From Opitutia bacterium (GTDB lineage Bacteria; Verrucomicrobiota; Verrucomicrobiia; Opitutales; Opitutaceae), in the NCBI GenBank assembly GCA_947453695.1, contig CANGHW010000013.1:1-64000 (forward strand): a DNA stretch of 64,000 bases, given 5' to 3'. Positions 6,587 to 14,311 of the stretch are shown in pieces. A model generated the notes under the pieces. The model was not told where the DNA came from, did not search any database, and worked only from the letters and a program-made list of their open reading frames with translations. The stretch's first letter is position 1; every line of letters begins with the position of its first letter. A program made the translations under genes and the position numbers.

Positions 6587-8848
6587 TCAGAGGGCGTGTT
6601 CGAACGAGATGTAGGCCAGCGGGCCCTTGAAGTTGGTGTTGCCGCCGGTCGTGTCGTTCTTGCTGTCGAAGTAGCCGACCTTGGCATTGCCGACCCACTT
6701 GTCGGAGAACTTGTGCTTCAGGCCGACGGTGACGGAGGTCTCCCGCACGGTGACACCATAGGGCATCGAGAGCGGGGCGAGGACGGCGTTGCCATTGTCG
6801 GCCCGGTAGGAGTTCACCTGCAGTTGGGCATCCGTGGCTTTGTCGACTACCCAACCGCTGACGAAAGTGATGGTGGAGTAGTTGTTGTCGGAGTTCTGCA
6901 CGATCCGGTTGGTGTCGAAGGCCACGGCGGTCGTGAGACCGGCAGCATTGACGACAGCGGGGGTCACACCGGCCCGTGGATAGGCGGTGCTGATCACGTG
7001 ATAGACCAACGTGCCGGCGACCTGGAAGTAGCATTGGGCGTTCGGATTGTAGTCGATCGTCTCGCTGAGCATGTAGTTCTTTGAGTTAAGCGAATCATAC
7101 GCCGGATAGGTCGGCAGGAAGCCGGTGACCTTCATCCGACCGTGTTGCTGCACGAAACGAGTGGTGGAGCCGAATTGCGCGATCGGCTTGGCAATCGCGG
7201 TGAGCTTGTAGCCATCGTAGGTTGAATCGAGCAGGTAGTAGTCACCGACAATCGTGGCCGGCGTGGTCGCGAAACCGACGGTGTTGTCCTTATGGCCCTT
7301 GCGGAAGAGTTCGCCGCGGAGGGTAAGCATCGGGGAGGTCTTCCAGCTCGCGCCGAGGGTGTAGTTGCCGTGGTCCTCGGAGACATTGTTCGCGGCGGGT
7401 GTGCCGATGACGGCGGTGAGCGGATTGTAGGAGGAGGTGTTTTGCTCCACGCCGCTGAGGTCGCGTTTGCTACCGTTGAAGTAGAGCGCGAGGTCCTTGA
7501 TGCCAGTGTAACGGACCTCGACGACCGGCGTGCGGACATTCTGGTGGATCTTGGCAAACCCGGTGCGGGGTGTGGTCGCAAGGGTGACGGCGGGAGTGCC
7601 GGAGGCCGCGATGACGTTGTAGCCGCTGGAGCCGCGGATGAACTCACTCTGGGCGCGGAACGCGAACTTCATGAAGAGGTTCTTCGTCGGCTTGTAGTCT
7701 AGGGCGATGTTGCCGGTGTAGTCCTTGACGCGGGTGCCGCCGTAGAGTCCGGCGTAGGCATCGGTCGCAACCGGGACCACACCCGTGGCCGTGGGCGTCT
7801 GGGTGACGATTGGGCGGCCGCCGCCGATCGTAGTGTGCACGAGATCGTAGTTGGCGCCGAGCCGCAGCGTGAACTGGTCGCTGAGCACGGTATCGGTCTC
7901 AAAGTTGACGCCGTTGGTCTGCGTCTTCTGCGCGTCGGTCTCGGTGATGGCTTGTTGGTTGTTCCAATTGTTGGCCGGAAGAGCGGCCTTCGCGATATTT
8001 TGCGGTGCGGCCACTTGGCCGGCGGGCACGGTGGCCGACAGACTCGCAACGGCCCATGGGATTACTTCACCGGGATAATTGGTGACGAAGCGGGTGTCGG
8101 AGTTGTTGGTGCGGTCGGCCAGGAGCGTGAGGCGCAGCGAGGTCTTCTTGATCTGGTGCTTCACCGTGGCCTCGACCACTTCGTGGCGCTCGCCGATCTG
8201 CATATAGCTCGGAGCAAACTTGCGGCCGGGATTGATCGGATTGGGTGCGAGGTTGAAGGGCAGACCCGTCAGATCCGTCGTGCCCCAGATGGTGGAGTCC
8301 TTCTGGCCGTTGCGGAGCTCATTGGTGTAGCGGATGACGAACTCGGGCGCATCTTTGAGCGCCAGCTTGGCCTCGACCCAGAACTTCGAGCGGTCGACGT
8401 GGAGATCCTCGTTGGCGAGGGGCATCCACTGCCTGTTCAGCGGGAAGAATCCGCCGACCCCGTCGTAGAAGGTCCGGAAGCGTTTGTAGCCGGCGTCGAT
8501 GGAGCCGACGTTGGTCTTGGTCACATTGAAGTGTCCAAGGTAGTCCTCGCTGCCGACGAGGGCCTTGCCGTCCAGGGTGACGGTGGTGGTTTTGTCGACA
8601 TCCTTGGCGATGTGGAGGTCTTCGATGCCGGCGCCACCATTGGCGTTTTGGCGGGTGCGGTTTTGGAAGGCGGCATCGTTGCCGGACACGGCGGGTGCCT
8701 GACCGCTGATCTTAATGTAGCTCTCGAAGTTCGGGAAGGCGTCGGCTTGGGCTTTATCCGCGGCGCGGAGCGAAATGCCCGAACCGAGGAGACAGGCTCC
8801 GGTGAGGAGCCCGGCACTGCGAATGAAGGGAGAAAACAGTGTTTTCAT
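6587..8848 (-). CDS. MtrB/PioB-family outer-membrane beta-barrel
   Basis: A 753-residue exported protein with a signal peptide (residues 1-30, cleavage near LRAADKAQ). The rest consists of alternating amphipathic strands ended by short turns, e.g. VNVQG-free repeats such as KFAFRAQSEF, LTLRGELFRKG and NAKVGYFDSK, as expected for a large porin, and it ends in an aromatic-containing strand YISFEHAL. The early segment with DGKALVGSEDYLGHF and the Tyr/Arg-rich strands resemble the MtrB/PioB family, which sheathes a periplasmic multiheme cytochrome across the outer membrane. It follows an octaheme cytochrome gene by 21 bases, the arrangement seen in mtrAB/pioAB/mtoAB. The usual N-terminal CxxC of Shewanella MtrB is not seen. 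No cell-surface MtrC-type cytochrome is encoded nearby. Confidence 0.8.
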   Translation of the reverse strand: MKTLFSPFIRSAGLLTGACLLGSGISLRAADKAQADAFPNFESYIKISGQAPAVSGNDAAFQNRTRQNANGGAGIEDLHIAKDVDKTTTVTLDGKALVGSEDYLGHFNVTKTNVGSIDAGYKRFRTFYDGVGGFFPLNRQWMPLANEDLHVDRSKFWVEAKLALKDAPEFVIRYTNELRNGQKDSTIWGTTDLTGLPFNLAPNPINPGRKFAPSYMQIGERHEVVEATVKHQIKKTSLRLTLLADRTNNSDTRFVTNYPGEVIPWAVASLSATVPAGQVAAPQNIAKAALPANNWNNQQAITETDAQKTQTNGVNFETDTVLSDQFTLRLGANYDLVHTTIGGGRPIVTQTPTATGVVPVATDAYAGLYGGTRVKDYTGNIALDYKPTKNLFMKFAFRAQSEFIRGSSGYNVIAASGTPAVTLATTPRTGFAKIHQNVRTPVVEVRYTGIKDLALYFNGSKRDLSGVEQNTSSYNPLTAVIGTPAANNVSEDHGNYTLGASWKTSPMLTLRGELFRKGHKDNTVGFATTPATIVGDYYLLDSTYDGYKLTAIAKPIAQFGSTTRFVQQHGRMKVTGFLPTYPAYDSLNSKNYMLSETIDYNPNAQCYFQVAGTLVYHVISTAYPRAGVTPAVVNAAGLTTAVAFDTNRIVQNSDNNYSTITFVSGWVVDKATDAQLQVNSYRADNGNAVLAPLSMPYGVTVRETSVTVGLKHKFSDKWVGNAKVGYFDSKNDTTGGNTNFKGPLAYISFEHAL

Positions 8849-8869
8849 GGCGGTGGTGTTGGGGCGTGC

Positions 8870-9670
8870 TCAGTTGCGGAAGTGGAAGCTGGCGTTGGAA
8901 CCGTGCGGTTGCTCGTGGCAACCCGCGCTCCAGCAGGTGCCCTGCATCAGGCGGCTGTTGTGATTTTCCGAGGTGTGCCGGATGGCATTGGCATTGATCT
9001 GGCCAGAGGAGCCGGCGTCGGGCGTCTCAAGGTGGCACCGGAGACAGAGGTTGGCGTCGCGGGCGACGAGCATCTTGGCGTTGATGGTGCCGTGCGGGTT
9101 GTGGCAGGCGACGCAGCCTTCGCGCATGGCGCCGTGTTCATAGACGAACGGGCCCTTCTGCTGCGTATGGCACTTGGTGCAGGTGGCGTTCATGCCCTCG
9201 AGGTCGGCACCGGTGCCGGCGATGGCGTTGCCCTTGTGCACTTCGTGACAGTCCGAGCAGCTCATCTTGCCGTTCAGCACCTGGTGACTGTTGGGCAGAC
9301 TAAACTGCGCCCGCTTGTCCAAGTGACATTGGAAGCAAGTCTCGGGGGACTTCTTGGGATTGATGATGGTGCCGCGGCTGCCGCCGGCGGCGACGTGGAT
9401 GCTGCCGGGACCGTGACACGCTTCGCAACCCGTGTCACCCAACTTGGGATCGGCGATGGCGAGGCGGGCATGGCTGGCGGAGTCGAAGTGACCGGTCTGG
9501 TCTTCGTGGCATTGGGTGCACTCCTTGGTGCCGACAAAGGTCGCGCCGGCGATCTGCGGCGGTGCGAGCAGGGTGCGATTGACCGCCACACAGCCGATCA
9601 GCACGGCGCCCCACAGGGCGGTGCCGCCGACAATGAGCGCGGTTTTATTCCTACGGATGAATGAGATCAT
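8870..9670 (-). CDS. Octaheme c-type cytochrome, MtrA/DmsE-like
   Basis: A 266-residue protein with an N-terminal signal or anchor helix (about 9-30) and eight heme sites: seven CxxCH with first Cys at 51, 82, 112, 138, 164, 186 and 209, and one C-x4-CH at C246-C251-H252 (CWSAGCH). Additional His residues in HxxH spacing (e.g. ARLAIAD upstream His, EVHKG, NPHG) can serve as distal ligands. Paired motifs of this kind and the adjacent MtrB-like barrel identify it as the periplasmic electron carrier of a porin-cytochrome conduit. Family members commonly carry ten hemes, so this is a shorter form. The ATG at 9670 gives MISFIRRNK before the hydrophobic helix. Divergent from the cytochrome/NrfD operon at 10028. 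Confidence 0.9.
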   Translation of the reverse strand: MISFIRRNKTALIVGGTALWGAVLIGCVAVNRTLLAPPQIAGATFVGTKECTQCHEDQTGHFDSASHARLAIADPKLGDTGCEACHGPGSIHVAAGGSRGTIINPKKSPETCFQCHLDKRAQFSLPNSHQVLNGKMSCSDCHEVHKGNAIAGTGADLEGMNATCTKCHTQQKGPFVYEHGAMREGCVACHNPHGTINAKMLVARDANLCLRCHLETPDAGSSGQINANAIRHTSENHNSRLMQGTCWSAGCHEQPHGSNASFHFRN

Positions 9671-10027: not shown

Positions 10028-10357
10028 ATGAAACACTCGCTTCGCATCCTCGCCCTCGCTCTTGCCTGTGGCTCTCTCTCCGCCCTCGCCGCCGATGGTC
10101 CCGCTAACTGGGAGCAACACTGCGCCAAATGTCACGGCCCCGACGGCAAAGGCGAAACCAAGATGGGCAAGAAACTCGGCATCGCCGACCTCAGCGACGC
10201 CAAGGTCCAGGCCAAGTTCGCCGACGCCGACGTCATCAAATCCGTCAAAGAGGGTATTAAAGACAAGGAGGGCAAACTCGCCATGAAGCCCATCGAGGGT
10301 CTCACCGACGACGAGATCAAGGCCCTCATCCCCGTCGTGCGCGCGCTCAAGAAGTAA
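10028..10357 (+). CDS. Monoheme cytochrome c (class I)
   Basis: A 109-residue exported cytochrome. Signal peptide of about 22 residues (LALALACGSLSALAAD), heme site C32-A-K-C35-H36, and M86 in KLAMKPIEGL as the likely axial ligand; the terminal helix is LTDDEIKALIPVVRALKK. It is a soluble periplasmic electron shuttle. It is the first gene of a five-gene plus-strand operon and is divergent from the MtrA-like cytochrome. In this setting it could carry electrons between the inner-membrane module downstream and the outer-membrane conduit. The ATG at 10028 is the one that gives a signal peptide; an in-frame upstream extension does not. Confidence 0.93.
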   Translation: MKHSLRILALALACGSLSALAADGPANWEQHCAKCHGPDGKGETKMGKKLGIADLSDAKVQAKFADADVIKSVKEGIKDKEGKLAMKPIEGLTDDEIKALIPVVRALKK

Positions 10358-10388: not shown

Positions 10389-11060
10389 ATGGACCAACGC
10401 CCCAATCCCGATCCCGGCAGCAAGCTGCCCCGCACCAATCTCCTCCTCGGTGGCCTGACGATCGGCTTCGTCGCGCTCGCGGCGCTGTTCGCGAAGGACC
10501 CATGGGGGCATGTGGCGCCGCCACAGAATATTCCCCTCGTCGATGCCAAGTTCCTCGAGACGACGCCGTGGCGTCGGACTTACACGGACATGGTCAAGGC
10601 CAAGGAGGACATGTCCGACTACGATTGCTACGGCTGCCATGAGAAGAACAAGCCGCCACCCATCCGCTACGACGCCAAGGGGAAGATCGTCATCCCCAAG
10701 GAGCACTCCAATATCGTCATGGGCCACGGCTCCCACGACCGCAACGACCTGTGCTACAACTGCCACAATGAGCAGAATCTCGTCACTCTTCAGGTCCGCG
10801 ACGGCCGGGAGCTGAAGTTCGACAACATTCCGCCCCTCTGCGGTTCCTGCCACGGCCCGACCTACCGCGACTGGGAAAACGGCGCGCACGGCCGCACCAG
10901 TGGCAATTGGGACTTCAGCAAGGGCGAATCCACCCGCCTGAGCTGCGCCAATTGCCACAATCCCCACGCCCCGCGCATCCCGACGCGCGAACCCGCCCCG
11001 GGCCCGCATCCGATGCGCTCCGCGGAGAAAACTTCGGCCCTCACTCCGACCCACCACTGA
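10389..11060 (+). CDS. Membrane-anchored tetraheme c-type cytochrome
   Basis: A 223-residue protein with a single N-terminal membrane helix (about 17-36, LLLGGLTIGFVALAALF) that is probably not cleaved, and four CxxCH sites with first Cys at 80, 122, 151 and 186 (CYGCH, CYNCH, CGSCH, CANCH). Extra His residues (e.g. MGHGSH, GAHGRTS) may be distal ligands, which would fit a bis-His NrfB/NapC-like low-potential chain. It lies 31 bases after the monoheme gene and one base before the iron-sulfur gene. With the NrfC-like and NrfD-like proteins it would form an inner-membrane quinol:cytochrome module. I do not match it to a named family. Confidence 0.88.
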   Translation: MDQRPNPDPGSKLPRTNLLLGGLTIGFVALAALFAKDPWGHVAPPQNIPLVDAKFLETTPWRRTYTDMVKAKEDMSDYDCYGCHEKNKPPPIRYDAKGKIVIPKEHSNIVMGHGSHDRNDLCYNCHNEQNLVTLQVRDGRELKFDNIPPLCGSCHGPTYRDWENGAHGRTSGNWDFSKGESTRLSCANCHNPHAPRIPTREPAPGPHPMRSAEKTSALTPTHH

Positions 11061-11061
11061 C

Positions 11062-12006
11062 ATGTCCCCCTCTCCTCTCCCACCAGACAAGACGTCCGAC
11101 GCCGCGATGTCGCGCCGCAGCTTCCTGCGCGGCACGGCTGCCGTCGGCGGTCTCACCGCTCTCGCTGCGAGCCTCGCTCCGCTGCGCGAGCTTTCCGATT
11201 TCACCAACACCGAGCAGTTCCTCCAAAAATACTACAAGGAACTCACCCCCGATGACATGGCCAAGGTCATCAAGCGCATCGAGGGCGACGTCGAAAAACA
11301 ATACGGCGTGCGCCCGCACGTCCGCGACCTCAAGCCCATGGACGGCGTCGAGTTCGTCTACTGCCTCAATCTCACGCGTTGCATCGGTTGCCGCAAATGC
11401 GTCCACGCCTGCGTCAACGAGAACAACCAGTCGCGCAGCCCGGAGATCCAATACATCCGCGTCCTCCGCCTGCCGCACGGTTCCCTCGACATCGAGAAGG
11501 CCGAGCACAACTACGATTCAAAGCAGGTCCCGGAAAAAGGCTTCTTCTACATGCCAGTGCAGTGCCAACAGTGCAAAAATCCTCCCTGCGTGAAGGTTTG
11601 CCCCGTGCACGCCACCTGGCAGGAGACCGACGGTATTACGGTGATCGACTACGACTGGTGCATCGGCTGCCGCTACTGCGAGGCGGCCTGCCCCTACTGG
11701 GCGCGCCGGTTTAATTTCACCAAGCCCTCGATCCCGAAGGAACGCCTGAACACCAACATGGCCTACCTCGGCAACCGCCCGCGCAAGCAGGGCGTGATGG
11801 AAAAGTGCCACTTCTGCATCCAGCGCACCCGCGCCGGCAAATACCCCGCGTGCCTCGAAGTCTGCCCCGTCGGCGCCCGCAAGTTCGGCAACATTCTCGA
11901 TCCCAACAGCGAGGTTTCCTACATCCTCCGGGAGAAGCGCGTGTTCATTCAGCTGAAAGAGGAAATGGGGACGTCACCACGGTTCTTTTACTACTTCGAC
12001 AAATGA
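11062..12006 (+). CDS. Tat-exported 4x[4Fe-4S] ferredoxin subunit (NrfC/DmsB-like)
   Basis: A 314-residue electron-transfer subunit. A twin-arginine signal SRRSFLRGTAAVGG (residues 17-30) directs it to the periplasm folded. Four Cys clusters follow: C107-C110-C113-C117, C168-C171-C176-C180, C200-C203-C206-C210 and C249-C252-C264-C268. This is the NrfC/HybA/PsrB pattern that binds four [4Fe-4S] clusters. Such proteins dock on an NrfD/PsrC membrane subunit, and that gene follows with a four-base overlap (ATGA). No molybdopterin catalytic subunit is encoded here, so electrons probably pass to the cytochromes of the same operon rather than to a Mo enzyme. Confidence 0.95.
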   Translation: MSPSPLPPDKTSDAAMSRRSFLRGTAAVGGLTALAASLAPLRELSDFTNTEQFLQKYYKELTPDDMAKVIKRIEGDVEKQYGVRPHVRDLKPMDGVEFVYCLNLTRCIGCRKCVHACVNENNQSRSPEIQYIRVLRLPHGSLDIEKAEHNYDSKQVPEKGFFYMPVQCQQCKNPPCVKVCPVHATWQETDGITVIDYDWCIGCRYCEAACPYWARRFNFTKPSIPKERLNTNMAYLGNRPRKQGVMEKCHFCIQRTRAGKYPACLEVCPVGARKFGNILDPNSEVSYILREKRVFIQLKEEMGTSPRFFYYFDK

Positions 12007-13748
12007 TCTCCGCGACCCGCAACTACCTCCGCTTCCTCGTTCGCTGCGCCCGCATCGCGTTCGTCGGCGACTGGCGCTACTACGCCTGGATGGGCGTCCT
12101 CACGCTCTTCGTGCTCCTCGGGCTCAACGCCTACTGCAAACAGCTCGTCCACGGCCTAATCACGACCGGCATGAGCGATGAAGTCTCCTGGGGCGTCTAC
12201 ATCGCCAACTTCACGTTCCTCGTCGGCGTCGCCGCCGCGGCTGTGATGATGGTCATCCCCGTCTATATCTACAACAACGAGGAGATGCATGATCTAGTGA
12301 TCTTCGGCGAACTACTCGCCGTCGCCGCGATCTTCATGTGCCTCGCGTTCGTGACCGTCGACCTCGGGCGACCGGACCGCTTCTGGCACCTCATCCCCGG
12401 GATAGGACAGTTCAACTTCCCAGCCTCGATGCTGAGCTGGGACGTCCTCGTGCTCAACGGCTACCTCGCCCTCAATGTCTGGATCTGCGGCTATCTCCTC
12501 TACAGCCGCTACCAAGGCAAGAAGCCCTCGAAGTGGTTCTATATTCCGTTCGTGTTCATCGCGATCGTGTGGGCCGTCTCGATCCACACCGTCACCGCGT
12601 TCCTCTACGTCGGCCTCGGCGGCCGCCCGTTCTGGAATTCCGCCATCGTCGGCCCCCGTTTCCTCGCCTCCGCCTTCGCCGCTGGTCCGTCGCTCATCAT
12701 CCTAGCGCTGCAGGTCATCCGCCGCGTCACCGCCTCCACGTCCGCGGAAGAGGCCGTGGCCCTCAGGGCCGCGTCGACCGTGCATCCCAGCGGACGTCCC
12801 GCCACGCTCGATGATCTCGATCTTCTCTCGTGCCACCTTCCTGAGCTCGCCGGCCTCACGCCGGCGGAGCGCGCTCTGTGCATTGAGGGCGCGACGGTAT
12901 TCGACGTCGCCGCCGGCGATGTCCTTCTTAAACAGGGCGAGCGCGACGTCCACGCTTTCTTCGTGCTCAACGGCCGTGTGGTTGTGAAACGTGAGGAAAG
13001 CGGCCGCTTCCGCGTCACCCGCAGCGTCGTCCCGGGCGGCCAGTTCGGCGAAGTCTCCGCCCTCAACAACACGCCCCGCATGGCCACGGCCATCGCCGAG
13101 GAGCCCACGCGCGTCATGTGCCTGCCGGCCGCTGCGCTGCGCGCCATGATGAAGAACCGCAAGGTCGAGGCCATCATCCGCTCGCACATGAGCGAGCGCC
13201 TCATGATCACCGACCACGCACTGCTCACCCTGCGCAGCATCGTGCAGGTTTCGATGATCATCAACGTGTTCCTCCTCGCGAACGAGGTCTTCAAGGAATT
13301 CTACTCCGGCAACCTCCACGTCGCCTCCTCGAAGTATCTCTTCCTCGGCCTGCACGGACACCACGCCCTCGTGCCGTGGATCTGGACCGCCGTCGGCCTC
13401 AACGTTGTCGGCATGATTCTCCTCATTCTGCCGATCAGCCGCAGTCTCAAGTGGCTCGATCTCGCCTGCGTGCTCTGCATCGTCGGTATCTGGATCGAGA
13501 AGGGCATGGGCCTCGTCATCCCCGGCTTCATCCCCACTCCGCTCGGCGCCATCGTCGAATACAGCCCGTCGCTCAACGAGACGCTCGTTTGCATCGGCAT
13601 CTGGGCCTTCGGCCTCCTCTGTTACACGATCTTTCTCCGCATGGCCGTCCCGATCCTCCAGGGCCGCATGTCCAAGGCCAACGAGGGCAAGAACGAGCTC
13701 GCCGAGGAAACGCCCACCCTCCCCAACGTCGCCCCTGCCACCCACTGA
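12003..13748 (+). CDS. NrfD/PsrC-type membrane subunit with inserted cyclic-nucleotide-binding domain
   Basis: A 581-residue polytopic protein. Residues 28-240 hold about six membrane helices with NrfD-family features (SWGVYIANFTFLVG, VDLGRPDRFWHL, FLASAFAAGPSLIILALQVI). Residues about 245-400 are soluble and contain a CAP_ED-like fold (285-385): VAAGDVLLKQGERD, FFVLNGRVVV, then GGQFGEVSALNN with a conserved Glu at about 350 and Arg 359 in TPRMATA, the positions that bind the cyclic nucleotide in CRP. NrfD helices resume at about 405-428 (LRSIVQVSMIINVFLLANEV) and continue to 548 (LHGHHALVPWIWT). NrfD subunits exchange electrons between quinones and the iron-sulfur partner. Start overlaps the Fe-S stop. 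The insertion sits cleanly between two helices and the frame is uninterrupted. If six helices precede it and the N-terminus is inside, the domain faces the cytoplasm. Confidence 0.92.
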   Translation: MISATRNYLRFLVRCARIAFVGDWRYYAWMGVLTLFVLLGLNAYCKQLVHGLITTGMSDEVSWGVYIANFTFLVGVAAAAVMMVIPVYIYNNEEMHDLVIFGELLAVAAIFMCLAFVTVDLGRPDRFWHLIPGIGQFNFPASMLSWDVLVLNGYLALNVWICGYLLYSRYQGKKPSKWFYIPFVFIAIVWAVSIHTVTAFLYVGLGGRPFWNSAIVGPRFLASAFAAGPSLIILALQVIRRVTASTSAEEAVALRAASTVHPSGRPATLDDLDLLSCHLPELAGLTPAERALCIEGATVFDVAAGDVLLKQGERDVHAFFVLNGRVVVKREESGRFRVTRSVVPGGQFGEVSALNNTPRMATAIAEEPTRVMCLPAAALRAMMKNRKVEAIIRSHMSERLMITDHALLTLRSIVQVSMIINVFLLANEVFKEFYSGNLHVASSKYLFLGLHGHHALVPWIWTAVGLNVVGMILLILPISRSLKWLDLACVLCIVGIWIEKGMGLVIPGFIPTPLGAIVEYSPSLNETLVCIGIWAFGLLCYTIFLRMAVPILQGRMSKANEGKNELAEETPTLPNVAPATH

Positions 13749-13759
13749 TCCCACCCACC

Positions 13760-14311
13760 ATGGCTCAACAACTCACCGCCGAAGACGCCCGCCAGTCCCT
13801 CACCGGCCACGTCGAACAAAAAGGCATCGAAGTCTTCAGCAAATACGGCCCCGTCCTCGATTGGGACCAACTCCAACTCCTCCTCGCCGACCGCGCTCAC
13901 GTGCGCTATCCGGTCGAGCTCGCATTCGACGCCACGCCGTTCCAACCGGGCGAATTCGCCTACCCGGCCCAGAAAGGCTCCGCACCCGAGGAGGGTTTCA
14001 CAATGTTCGTTCATCCGAGCTTCGAAAACCAACCCGACCGCGCCGTCGCTGCCGTGCTCTACCAGCTCGTCGTGGTCAATTACGGCGATTTCGCCGGGGC
14101 AGACGAGGCCGAGACCTTCGGCGCCGCCAGCCTCGGCCTCACGCGCGACGAATACTACGCCCAGCTATGCGCCATGGCCGATGAAGTCGGCGGCCCTGTG
14201 GAATACGTCGACGCCGCTCGCGAACACGCCGAGCCCGCGCTCGCTGGCTTCGGTAACGAGAGCGGAGGCTGCAGTTGCGGCGGTGGTGGTGGCGGGTGCC
14301 ACGGCCACTGA
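13760..14311 (+). CDS. Uncharacterised protein with Cys/Gly/His C-terminal tail
   Basis: A 183-residue soluble protein that I do not recognise. No signal peptide. The body is mixed alpha/beta (GPVLDWDQLQLLLADRAHVR, VELAFDATPFQPGEF, FTMFVHPSF). It ends in GGCSCGGGGGGCHGH, three Cys and two His in a glycine stretch that could bind a metal or tether a cofactor. It is the last gene of the cytochrome/NrfD operon, 11 bases after the NrfD stop, and is followed by a strong terminator. Assembly or metal delivery for the cytochrome/Fe-S module is a guess from position. The ATG at 13760 follows the NrfD stop; earlier in-frame codons lie inside NrfD. Confidence 0.85.
   Translation: MAQQLTAEDARQSLTGHVEQKGIEVFSKYGPVLDWDQLQLLLADRAHVRYPVELAFDATPFQPGEFAYPAQKGSAPEEGFTMFVHPSFENQPDRAVAAVLYQLVVVNYGDFAGADEAETFGAASLGLTRDEYYAQLCAMADEVGGPVEYVDAAREHAEPALAGFGNESGGCSCGGGGGGCHGH

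Follow-up and report, generated by a model that had tools for sequence, protein, structure and literature searches.

The gene cluster and its membrane subunit

The window, the whole stretch of 64,000 nucleotides that was analysed, carries a cluster of redox genes around a gene for a quinone oxidoreductase membrane subunit with an inserted cyclic-nucleotide-binding (cNMP) domain. The genes are as follows.

6587..8848, minus strand: MtrB/PioB-like porin candidate (21.8 bits, just below the Pfam cut-off of 23)
8870..9670, minus strand: DmsE/GSU2203-like multiheme cytochrome with 7 CxxCH motifs, below the NCBIfam cut-offs
10028..10357, plus strand: monoheme cytochrome c (1 CxxCH)
10389..11060, plus strand: tetraheme c-type cytochrome (4 CxxCH)
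11062..12006, plus strand: 4Fe-4S ferredoxin-like subunit (DsrO 172.5 bits, cut-off 200)
12003..13748, plus strand: quinone oxidoreductase membrane subunit of the DsrP/NrfD type, 581 aa, carrying the cNMP-binding insert
13760..14311, plus strand: conserved 183-aa companion protein with a Cys/Gly-rich tail and no family match

Within the 581-aa protein the following parts can be told apart.

12003..12731, plus strand: helix A and TMH1-5, residues 1-243, with presumed quinone-site residues D120, S142 and D147
12732..12785, plus strand: variable linker, residues 244-261 (17.5% mean pairwise identity over 245-261)
12786..13208, plus strand: cyclic-nucleotide-binding domain (beta-roll and C-helix), residues 262-402, predicted cytoplasmic
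13035..13094, plus strand: phosphate-binding cassette, residues 345-364, with E350 and R359 invariant (55/55)
13209..13745, plus strand: TMH6-8, helix B and C-terminal tail, residues 403-581, with presumed gate lysine K500

The frame from 12003 to 13748 is open throughout, as an earlier note on this DNA had it, and the assignment made there to the NrfD type is borne out by a Pfam NrfD match over residues 55-246 (124.4 bits, cut-off 25.8, E 9.9e-36). The protein also passes the NCBIfam equivalog model for DsrP (409.8 bits, cut-off 350), an identity that the earlier note had missed, together with the cytochrome/porin neighbourhood and the repeated gain or loss of the insert, although it did name the Fe-S partner. 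The NrfD profile (PF03916) is matched by 74/74 members of set A1, and PF00027 by 50/74, which is the number of insert-bearing members in that set; the NCBIfam DsrP model is matched by 19/19 insert-free members (E<=0.001), the insert-free L055 reaching 421.8 bits.

The predicted model of the full chain, which represents one predicted state without partners or ligand, has 10 long membrane-type helices (mean pLDDT 81.3), in keeping with the two four-helix bundles and 8-10 helices of the NrfD/PsrC family. The closest solved membrane fold is that of ActC of Alternative complex III (Foldseek ranks 1-4: 6btm, 8k9e, 6f0k, 6lod), with a profile match to ActC chain 6f0k_C at E 2.8e-12, but this is a different complex for which the Foldseek and profile matches report no cNMP domain, and we know of none in ActC. 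The quinone-site and gate residues of the 581-aa protein were assigned by mapping through ActC, and D120, S142, D147 and K500 are kept in 88/88 rows (111 were assembled and identical ones merged, leaving 73 loci, 14 rows from other genomes and the window). The DsrP1 of D. vulgaris has an Asp/Ser quinone site and a Lys in TMH8, according to the available text of PMC8076601, and the same Asp/Ser and TMH8 Lys are found here through the ActC mapping. The 581-aa protein is probably a quinone-reacting subunit drawing electrons from the respiratory quinone pool.

The cNMP domain sits between membrane helices 5 and 6 of this DsrP-type NrfD subunit, so that the earlier placing of it between membrane helices was right, as were the flanks given for it, LALQVIRRVT and LRSIVQVSMIINVF. 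The 33 distinct insert-free rows measure 386-435 aa, thus the excess length of the 581-aa protein is the insert. The DsrP of DsrMKJOP, a 10-helix member of the NrfD/PsrC family, is similar in that Fe-S and multiheme c partners are encoded here too, but the cytochrome partner here is tetraheme and not triheme, and there are about 160 extra residues that hold the cNMP domain between TMH5 and TMH6. DsrM and DsrK are absent among the seven neighbouring proteins scanned. A part in dissimilatory sulfite reduction was considered and rejected, as the best DsrA match in the host genome (92.95% complete) reaches 22.3 bits against a cut-off of 392.85 and DsrC has no match in it. The SirCD of Shewanella, a quinol dehydrogenase of the NrfD/PsrC type, also combines an Fe-S protein with an NrfD-type subunit and takes its electrons from quinols; unlike the present protein, it has no sensor domain mentioned for it in the available text.

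The stop of the Fe-S gene and the start of the NrfD gene overlap by 4 bases. Among loci with enough flank the Fe-S gene lies upstream of NrfD in 52/52 with the insert and 26/26 without it, and the tetraheme gene is found in 51/51 and 26/26 respectively. The Fe-S subunit has a Tat-like signal of 22.2 bits, just below the Pfam cut-off of 22.7, which was counted toward a cytoplasmic side of the insert. Clusters of porin and multiheme cytochrome genes have been described in Verrucomicrobia by He et al. 2017 (PMC5615132), and the present cluster resembles them in both kinds of gene and in phylum; in the available text of that paper electron transfer at the inner membrane is named only 'ET in IM', and there is no mention of DsrP, of polysulfide reductase or of quinol.

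Fold and ligand pocket of the inserted domain

The CAP_ED-like domain that had been recognised in the insert is complete, with a match to Pfam cNMP_binding (PF00027) over residues 302-385 (67 bits, cut-off 27.5, E 1.4e-18). It had been placed at about 285-385 and is indeed present there, but the folded insert spans about 262-402 and follows the variable linker. Structure prediction of the insert alone, which the earlier note had proposed as a check, gave a CAP_ED-type fold and not the lack of one that was considered there, the model being a beta-roll (pLDDT 91.6) whose top Foldseek matches are PKA and CRP, with CNG-channel domains alike and DNR also among the matches. A chance domain match is excluded by these E-values and by the recurrence of the domain described below.

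In the 55 distinct insert sequences F348, G349, E350, S352, R359 and A363 are invariant (55/55), with A361 kept in 53/55 and T362 in 50/55. The earlier note had the ligand-site residues as partly conserved, which understates the case, as they are conserved in full; the Glu350/Arg359 pair is intact, and the family-wide loss of it that the note had envisaged is not seen. In sequence and predicted structure alike, the ligand pocket is shown to be intact. The codons of the insert show it to be under purifying selection (dN/dS 0.10-0.27 in 9/9 pairs), with 7/18 of its invariant columns falling within the 20-residue cassette of a 141-residue insert (hypergeometric p 0.005).

Amino-acid change is faster in the insert than in the core, mean pairwise identity being 58% for inserts and 83% for the core. 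It could be supposed from this variability, from the patchy occurrence of the insert and from the fact that insert-free forms must function without the domain, that it is a structural or docking module which makes a dimer contact, recruits partners or localises the protein, its nucleotide being either constitutively bound or of no consequence for electron flow. This is rather unlikely, as the invariant positions are enriched in the ligand cassette and the lid helix joins TMH6 after only six residues.

The residue after Arg359 varies across the 55 rows (M 15, T 14, V 11, A 6, others 9), and a preference for cAMP or cGMP is therefore unreadable from it. CRP-family sensor domains are known to have diversified in their ligands, and together with this variable position, the DNR match and two GGDEF matches in the host genome (one full-length) this would suit a cyclic-nucleotide fold kept for another ligand, be it c-di-GMP, another cyclic dinucleotide or a redox or gas signal as in some CRP/FNR relatives. 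Such a change of ligand appears rather unlikely when set against the invariant classical FGE...R.A cassette and the 4 class III cyclases of the genome. An Fe-S or heme sensor of the FNR/DNR type was rejected, the insert having no conserved Cys/His pattern for such ligation; no column holds Cys or His in >30% of the 55 rows, H278 (33/55) being the only exception.

Recurrence of the insert among relatives

Sequences and predicted models show both the anatomy of the subunit and the recurrence of its insert. Of 80 related loci kept, 54 have the insert and 26 do not, and the close relatives without it run straight on at this place, as had been stated of NrfD relatives, typically reading IIRRVTxYHITDKALLTLRSIVQVSM. 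The same architecture is found in other genera and families of the class, the earlier note having proposed a search for it across Verrucomicrobiota, with both forms inside each of six genera of one family and the insert present in five families, a count that covers insert-bearing matches only; some other matches are incomplete. Seven of the 80 loci were left out of the trees and of the conservation count, L024 for an odd frame end and L050-L053, L068 and L073 as truncated; the cassette is still visible in L024, L050 and L051, and L052 and L053, whose contigs stop within the insert, were both counted as insert-bearing.

A single clade of insert-bearing cores is rejected (AU p 0.002) on a quick tree of 81 rows from which 7 distant rows were omitted, and the insert label changes at least 10 times across the core tree. 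Distances of insert and core have a Spearman correlation of 0.56 over 1485 pairs, and as this is only moderate it is possible that the insert has been recombined or transferred. Relatives that lack the insert but share the operon are frequent, thus the domain is dispensable. There are 8 plasmid records with a relative, none with a single place covering 80% of the query, and the best of them, a Flammeovirga DsrP, covers 64% of it in 2 pieces, which suggests, judged by coverage, that this plasmid DsrP is without the insert. The Family 2B encapsulins likewise have an internal cNMP domain (PF00027) that is present or absent among relatives (available text of PMC8346489), although they are soluble shell proteins and not membrane redox subunits.

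The absence of the insert from close relatives had been put forward as a possible sign of an assembly chimera. That absence is real, in 26/80 loci, but chimera or misassembly is refuted because 54/80 loci, on different contigs and records, have the insert at the same place; the frame is continuous, the insert is under purifying selection and GC3 is similar before, in and after it (0.89, 0.84 and 0.90). The pattern of presence and absence is therefore natural.

Possible control of quinol oxidation by a cyclic nucleotide

The insert is predicted by topology to face the cytoplasm, as the earlier note had supposed; Lys and Arg average 15.7 on the assigned cytoplasmic loops vs 7.2 on the periplasmic ones over the 33 insert-free rows, and DsrP is described with a P-side quinone site and a 10-helix topology (available text of PMC8076601). 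The tetraheme c cytochrome, the Fe-S protein and the DsrP-type NrfD subunit would form a periplasm-facing quinol:cytochrome oxidoreductase, which probably supplies periplasmic cytochromes and, in the window, perhaps also feeds a porin-cytochrome conduit. A cAMP/cGMP-type sensor would then sit in the cytoplasmic TMH5-TMH6 hairpin, within the second four-helix bundle. In the model the C-helix that acts as lid (386-397) is followed by six residues and then by TMH6 from 404, and from this we infer coupling of the lid to the TMH5/TMH6 pair. Binding of the nucleotide would move the lid and alter this pair, the shift would change proton movement, and quinol oxidation and electron export would change with it.

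It is fairly probable that quinol oxidation by the DsrP-type subunit is subject to allosteric modulation by a cyclic nucleotide, where we infer ligand binding, the identity of the ligand, the allosteric coupling and its sign. A narrower proposal is given an even chance: cAMP or cGMP, bound to the domain within the second, proton-path bundle, would turn quinol oxidation on or off in a matter of seconds, bacteria would thereby control electron export directly by second messenger, and the insert would be a plug-in that has repeatedly been acquired and lost, or exchanged between alleles. The CNG/HCN/SthK/MloK1 channels and the exchanger SLC9C1, all of them membrane proteins, have a cytoplasmic domain of the same fold, and direct gating by the ligand provides an analogy. 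In the cyclic-nucleotide channels the domain is C-terminal to the pore and the membrane part is unrelated, whereas here the domain is internal to a protein that would move electrons and perhaps protons. As the direction of signalling is not fixed by the architecture, and redox sensing at the membrane is a known principle, the signal could instead run from the NrfD core through the domain to the cytoplasm and convey the redox state of the quinones or the proton load, in a protein that is mainly a sensor. This is very improbable, as the redox operon and the conserved quinone and gate residues point to an enzyme, and Pfam shows the cNMP domain only, with no other output domain.

The host genome encodes, besides its class III cyclases, 9 cNMP domains (the inserted one included), and there is no cyclase match on the window's own contig. 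Genomes of one family were scored as insert-bearing on a single match that runs across residues 244-400 or stops within them (n=34) and as insert-free where the two halves were adjacent with no insert (n=49). A class III cyclase is found in 33/34 of the former, the exception being G540 (93% complete) with no such match, vs 39/49 of the latter (p 0.023, kinship ignored). G477, with a C-terminal fragment only, was left out of this count, and scoring it as insert-free gives 40/50 (p 0.025). Against close insert-free relatives only (29/33 with a cyclase) the association is gone (p 0.20), and this co-occurrence was set aside as weak and confounded.

The known control of respiration and extracellular electron transfer by cyclic nucleotides is for the most part described at the level of transcription, as with Crp in Shewanella. 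No description of an NrfD-cNMP domain fusion was found in the open-licence literature as far as its text was available, and the one paper using both NrfD and cyclic nucleotide-binding domain does so for different genes. If cyclic-nucleotide modulation of the DsrP-type subunit is true, it would be a post-translational, seconds-scale control of electron export in a quinone-reacting subunit, and some bacteria may have a respiratory route switched directly by a second messenger. Close orthologues, some with the insert and some lacking it, provide a ready natural control. It has been proposed (available text of PMC8076601) that the helix bundles of NrfD are linked with the movement of protons and with the turnover of quinol, which a ligand switch would allow to be tested.

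Architecture of the subunit and its relatives

The gene at 12003-13748 (+) is an uninterrupted frame of 581 residues in which Pfam recognises NrfD at residues 55-246 (E 9.9e-36) and cNMP_binding at residues 302-385 (E 1.4e-18). The protein also scores 409.8 bits against the DsrP model of NCBIfam (cut-off 350), the alignment splitting into two stretches as is expected for a model interrupted by a domain. An NrfD-type subunit with a CAP_ED-like domain inside its open frame was what the earlier note had read from the sequence alone, and these matches bear out both parts. The single parts are already known, their combination was not found in the literature as far as this could be searched, and a new domain architecture in a respiratory protein is well supported.

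When a species-level genome collection was scanned, at least 557 stretches coding for relatives came up, and among the best 80, which were kept, the insert is present in 54 (counting L052 and L053, two loci whose contigs stop within it) and absent from 26 (L055-L080). The insertion site is common to all insert-bearing loci, VIRRVT - linker + domain - RLMITDxALLTLRSIVQVSM, with insert-free proteins typically reading IIRRVTxYHITDKALLTLRSIVQVSM. Within the family the closest insert-free proteins share up to 90% identity with the window protein in the N part and up to 88% in the C part. An assembly chimera, with the insert absent from close relatives with identical flanks, had been considered; like-flanked relatives do lack it at the 26 loci, yet the other 54 carry it at the same site, and a chimera was rejected. 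All 80 loci have record titles beginning MAG, and the architecture occurs in many metagenome-assembled genomes.

Fold, redox core and probable ligand site

The full-chain AlphaFold2 model (74 aligned sequences; mean pLDDT 81.3, pTM 0.83) has ten long helices, six before the insert (24-54, 59-82, 93-121, 144-170, 177-204, 218-243) and four after it (404-434, 457-475, 482-501, 524-552), with low confidence in some loops (137-141, 204-207). Calisto and Pereira (PMC8076601) predict ten helices for DsrP that correspond to the ActC helices; the two termini lie on the N-side, and the first bundle has its quinone site close to the P-side. Following their numbering, the insert is modelled between TMH5 and TMH6 (218-243 and 404-434), so the proposed insertion between membrane helices holds in the model. 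Lys and Arg number 15.7 on assigned cytoplasmic loops against 7.2 on periplasmic ones (33 insert-free aligned relatives), and a Tat-like signal on the Fe-S partner scores 22.2 bits, just below the Pfam cut-off of 22.7; with the helix topology, these predict that the insert faces the cytoplasm.

Modelled alone (pLDDT 91.6), the insert takes the CAP_ED fold proposed for it, its top matches among solved structures being PKA RI-alpha and CRP/GlxR; MloK1 domains appear among the matches too. For the full chain the top match is ActC of alternative complex III, followed by cyclic-nucleotide channels and PKA.

All 88 aligned sequences keep D120, S142, D147 and K500. When the insert-free profile is aligned with ActC, positions counted by hand, D120 and D147 fall on the quinone residues His139 and Asp169, and K500 on the gate residue Arg395, where D. 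vulgaris DsrP1 has Lys (PMC8076601). In the genome, DsrA matches stay below cut-off and DsrC has no match, so that the DsrP name marks ancestry and sulfite reduction was rejected as the role of the subunit.

The Glu/Arg pair, which in CRP and PKA touches ribose and phosphate, is retained in all 55 distinct insert sequences (E350, R359). The cyclic-nucleotide residues had been described as partly conserved; the conservation stands but the qualifier does not, as six residues of the phosphate-binding cassette (345-364), F348, G349, E350, S352, R359 and A363, are invariant in the 55, with A361 kept in 53 and T362 in 50. Of the 18 insert columns that never vary, seven fall within this 20-residue cassette (hypergeometric p 0.005), and pairs of sequences share on average 83% identity in the core (the subunit without its insert), 76% in the cassette and 58% in the insert. 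At position 360, which in kinases helps decide between cAMP and cGMP, the inserts have M, T, V, A, E, L or Q, a variation that predicts neither nucleotide. Across nine pairs dN/dS is 0.10-0.27 for the insert and 0.02-0.14 for the core, the insert being under purifying selection that is weaker than the core's in eight.

The sensor domain is complete, its pocket intact and the redox core conserved. The insert very probably binds a cyclic nucleotide, and we lean towards binding modulating turnover. By analogy with CNG-type channels, binding would close a lid and shift the C-helix (386-397), which leads, six residues on, into TMH6 (from 404); the shift could then change the bundle proposed to carry the P-side half-channel in NrfD proteins (PMC8076601). 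The switch may be on or off. Direct nucleotide gating of a respiratory subunit is plausible and testable.

Operon and cyclic-nucleotide signal

The gene lies among the following features.

12003-12006 (+): overlap of Fe-S gene stop and NrfD gene start, from coordinates
Upstream of the subunit gene: tetraheme cytochrome and monoheme cytochrome
13760-14311 (+): 183-aa companion protein with a Cys/Gly-rich tail, following the operon
6587-9670 (-): DmsE-like multiheme cytochrome and MtrB/PioB-like porin candidate (just below the Pfam cut-off), divergent from and adjoining the quinol oxidoreductase operon

Where the flank is long enough, the Fe-S gene precedes the subunit gene at 52/52 insert-bearing and 26/26 insert-free loci, the tetraheme gene at 51/51 and 26/26 and the monoheme gene at 34/47 and 21/25, with the companion, which has no family match at E<=0.1 in Pfam or NCBIfam, downstream at 37/43 and 17/22. 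The opposite-strand pair is a candidate porin-cytochrome conduit. Within about 6 kb, a DmsE-like match (at least 40% identity) is found at only 10/25 insert-bearing and 7/9 insert-free loci and a porin match, weak ones included, at 11/25 and 6/9; these partial counts link some loci, the window's included, to electron export, and at the remainder the complex may pass electrons to other periplasmic cytochromes. Extracellular electron transfer is the role proposed for Verrucomicrobiota porin-cytochrome clusters (PMC5615132), and a functional precedent is SirCD, a quinol dehydrogenase of NrfD type that supplies ferric citrate reduction (PMC11434368).

The window's genome has four class III cyclases, nine cNMP domains (the subunit's own among them) and two GGDEF matches, one full-length and one short with an in-frame stop. 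Among family genomes with the subunit, a class III cyclase occurs in 33/34 insert-bearing (the exception being G540) and 39/49 insert-free genomes (Fisher p 0.023, uncorrected for kinship); it occurs in 29/33 close insert-free relatives, against which p is 0.20. This co-occurrence fits cAMP or cGMP as ligand without proving it.

Distribution and origin of the insert

The subunit is found in 84 of 252 genomes of the window's family, with the insert in 34 (15 genera) and without it in 49, by manual reading of match ranges that placed G477 in neither class; both kinds coexist in six genera (g2, g5, g6, g14, g209, g222). In even draws, 39/384 genomes of the class match at E<=1e-60, nine with the insert, in five families, and 17/387 of the phylum at E<=1e-20, five with the insert, all of the window's family. 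The search across Verrucomicrobiota suggested earlier finds the architecture in other genera and families of the class.

The insert is absent from distant rows of the core tree and so is probably derived. The insert label requires 10 changes, four forced by starred branches, on a quick tree with long-branch warnings for distant rows, and a single clade of insert-bearing cores was rejected (AU p 0.002, quick tree). The domain has been repeatedly lost, or moved between alleles. At insert-bearing L137 (genome G462) the core differs by about 7% from insert-free L060, L062 and L064, whereas its insert and the closest of the other inserts compared are about 39% different, a pattern possibly due to domain-only transfer or to recent loss in the neighbours. 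Two genomes, G490 (L134) and G438 (L135), have an insert-bearing copy plus a distant insert-free copy (N-part identity 65% and 66%).
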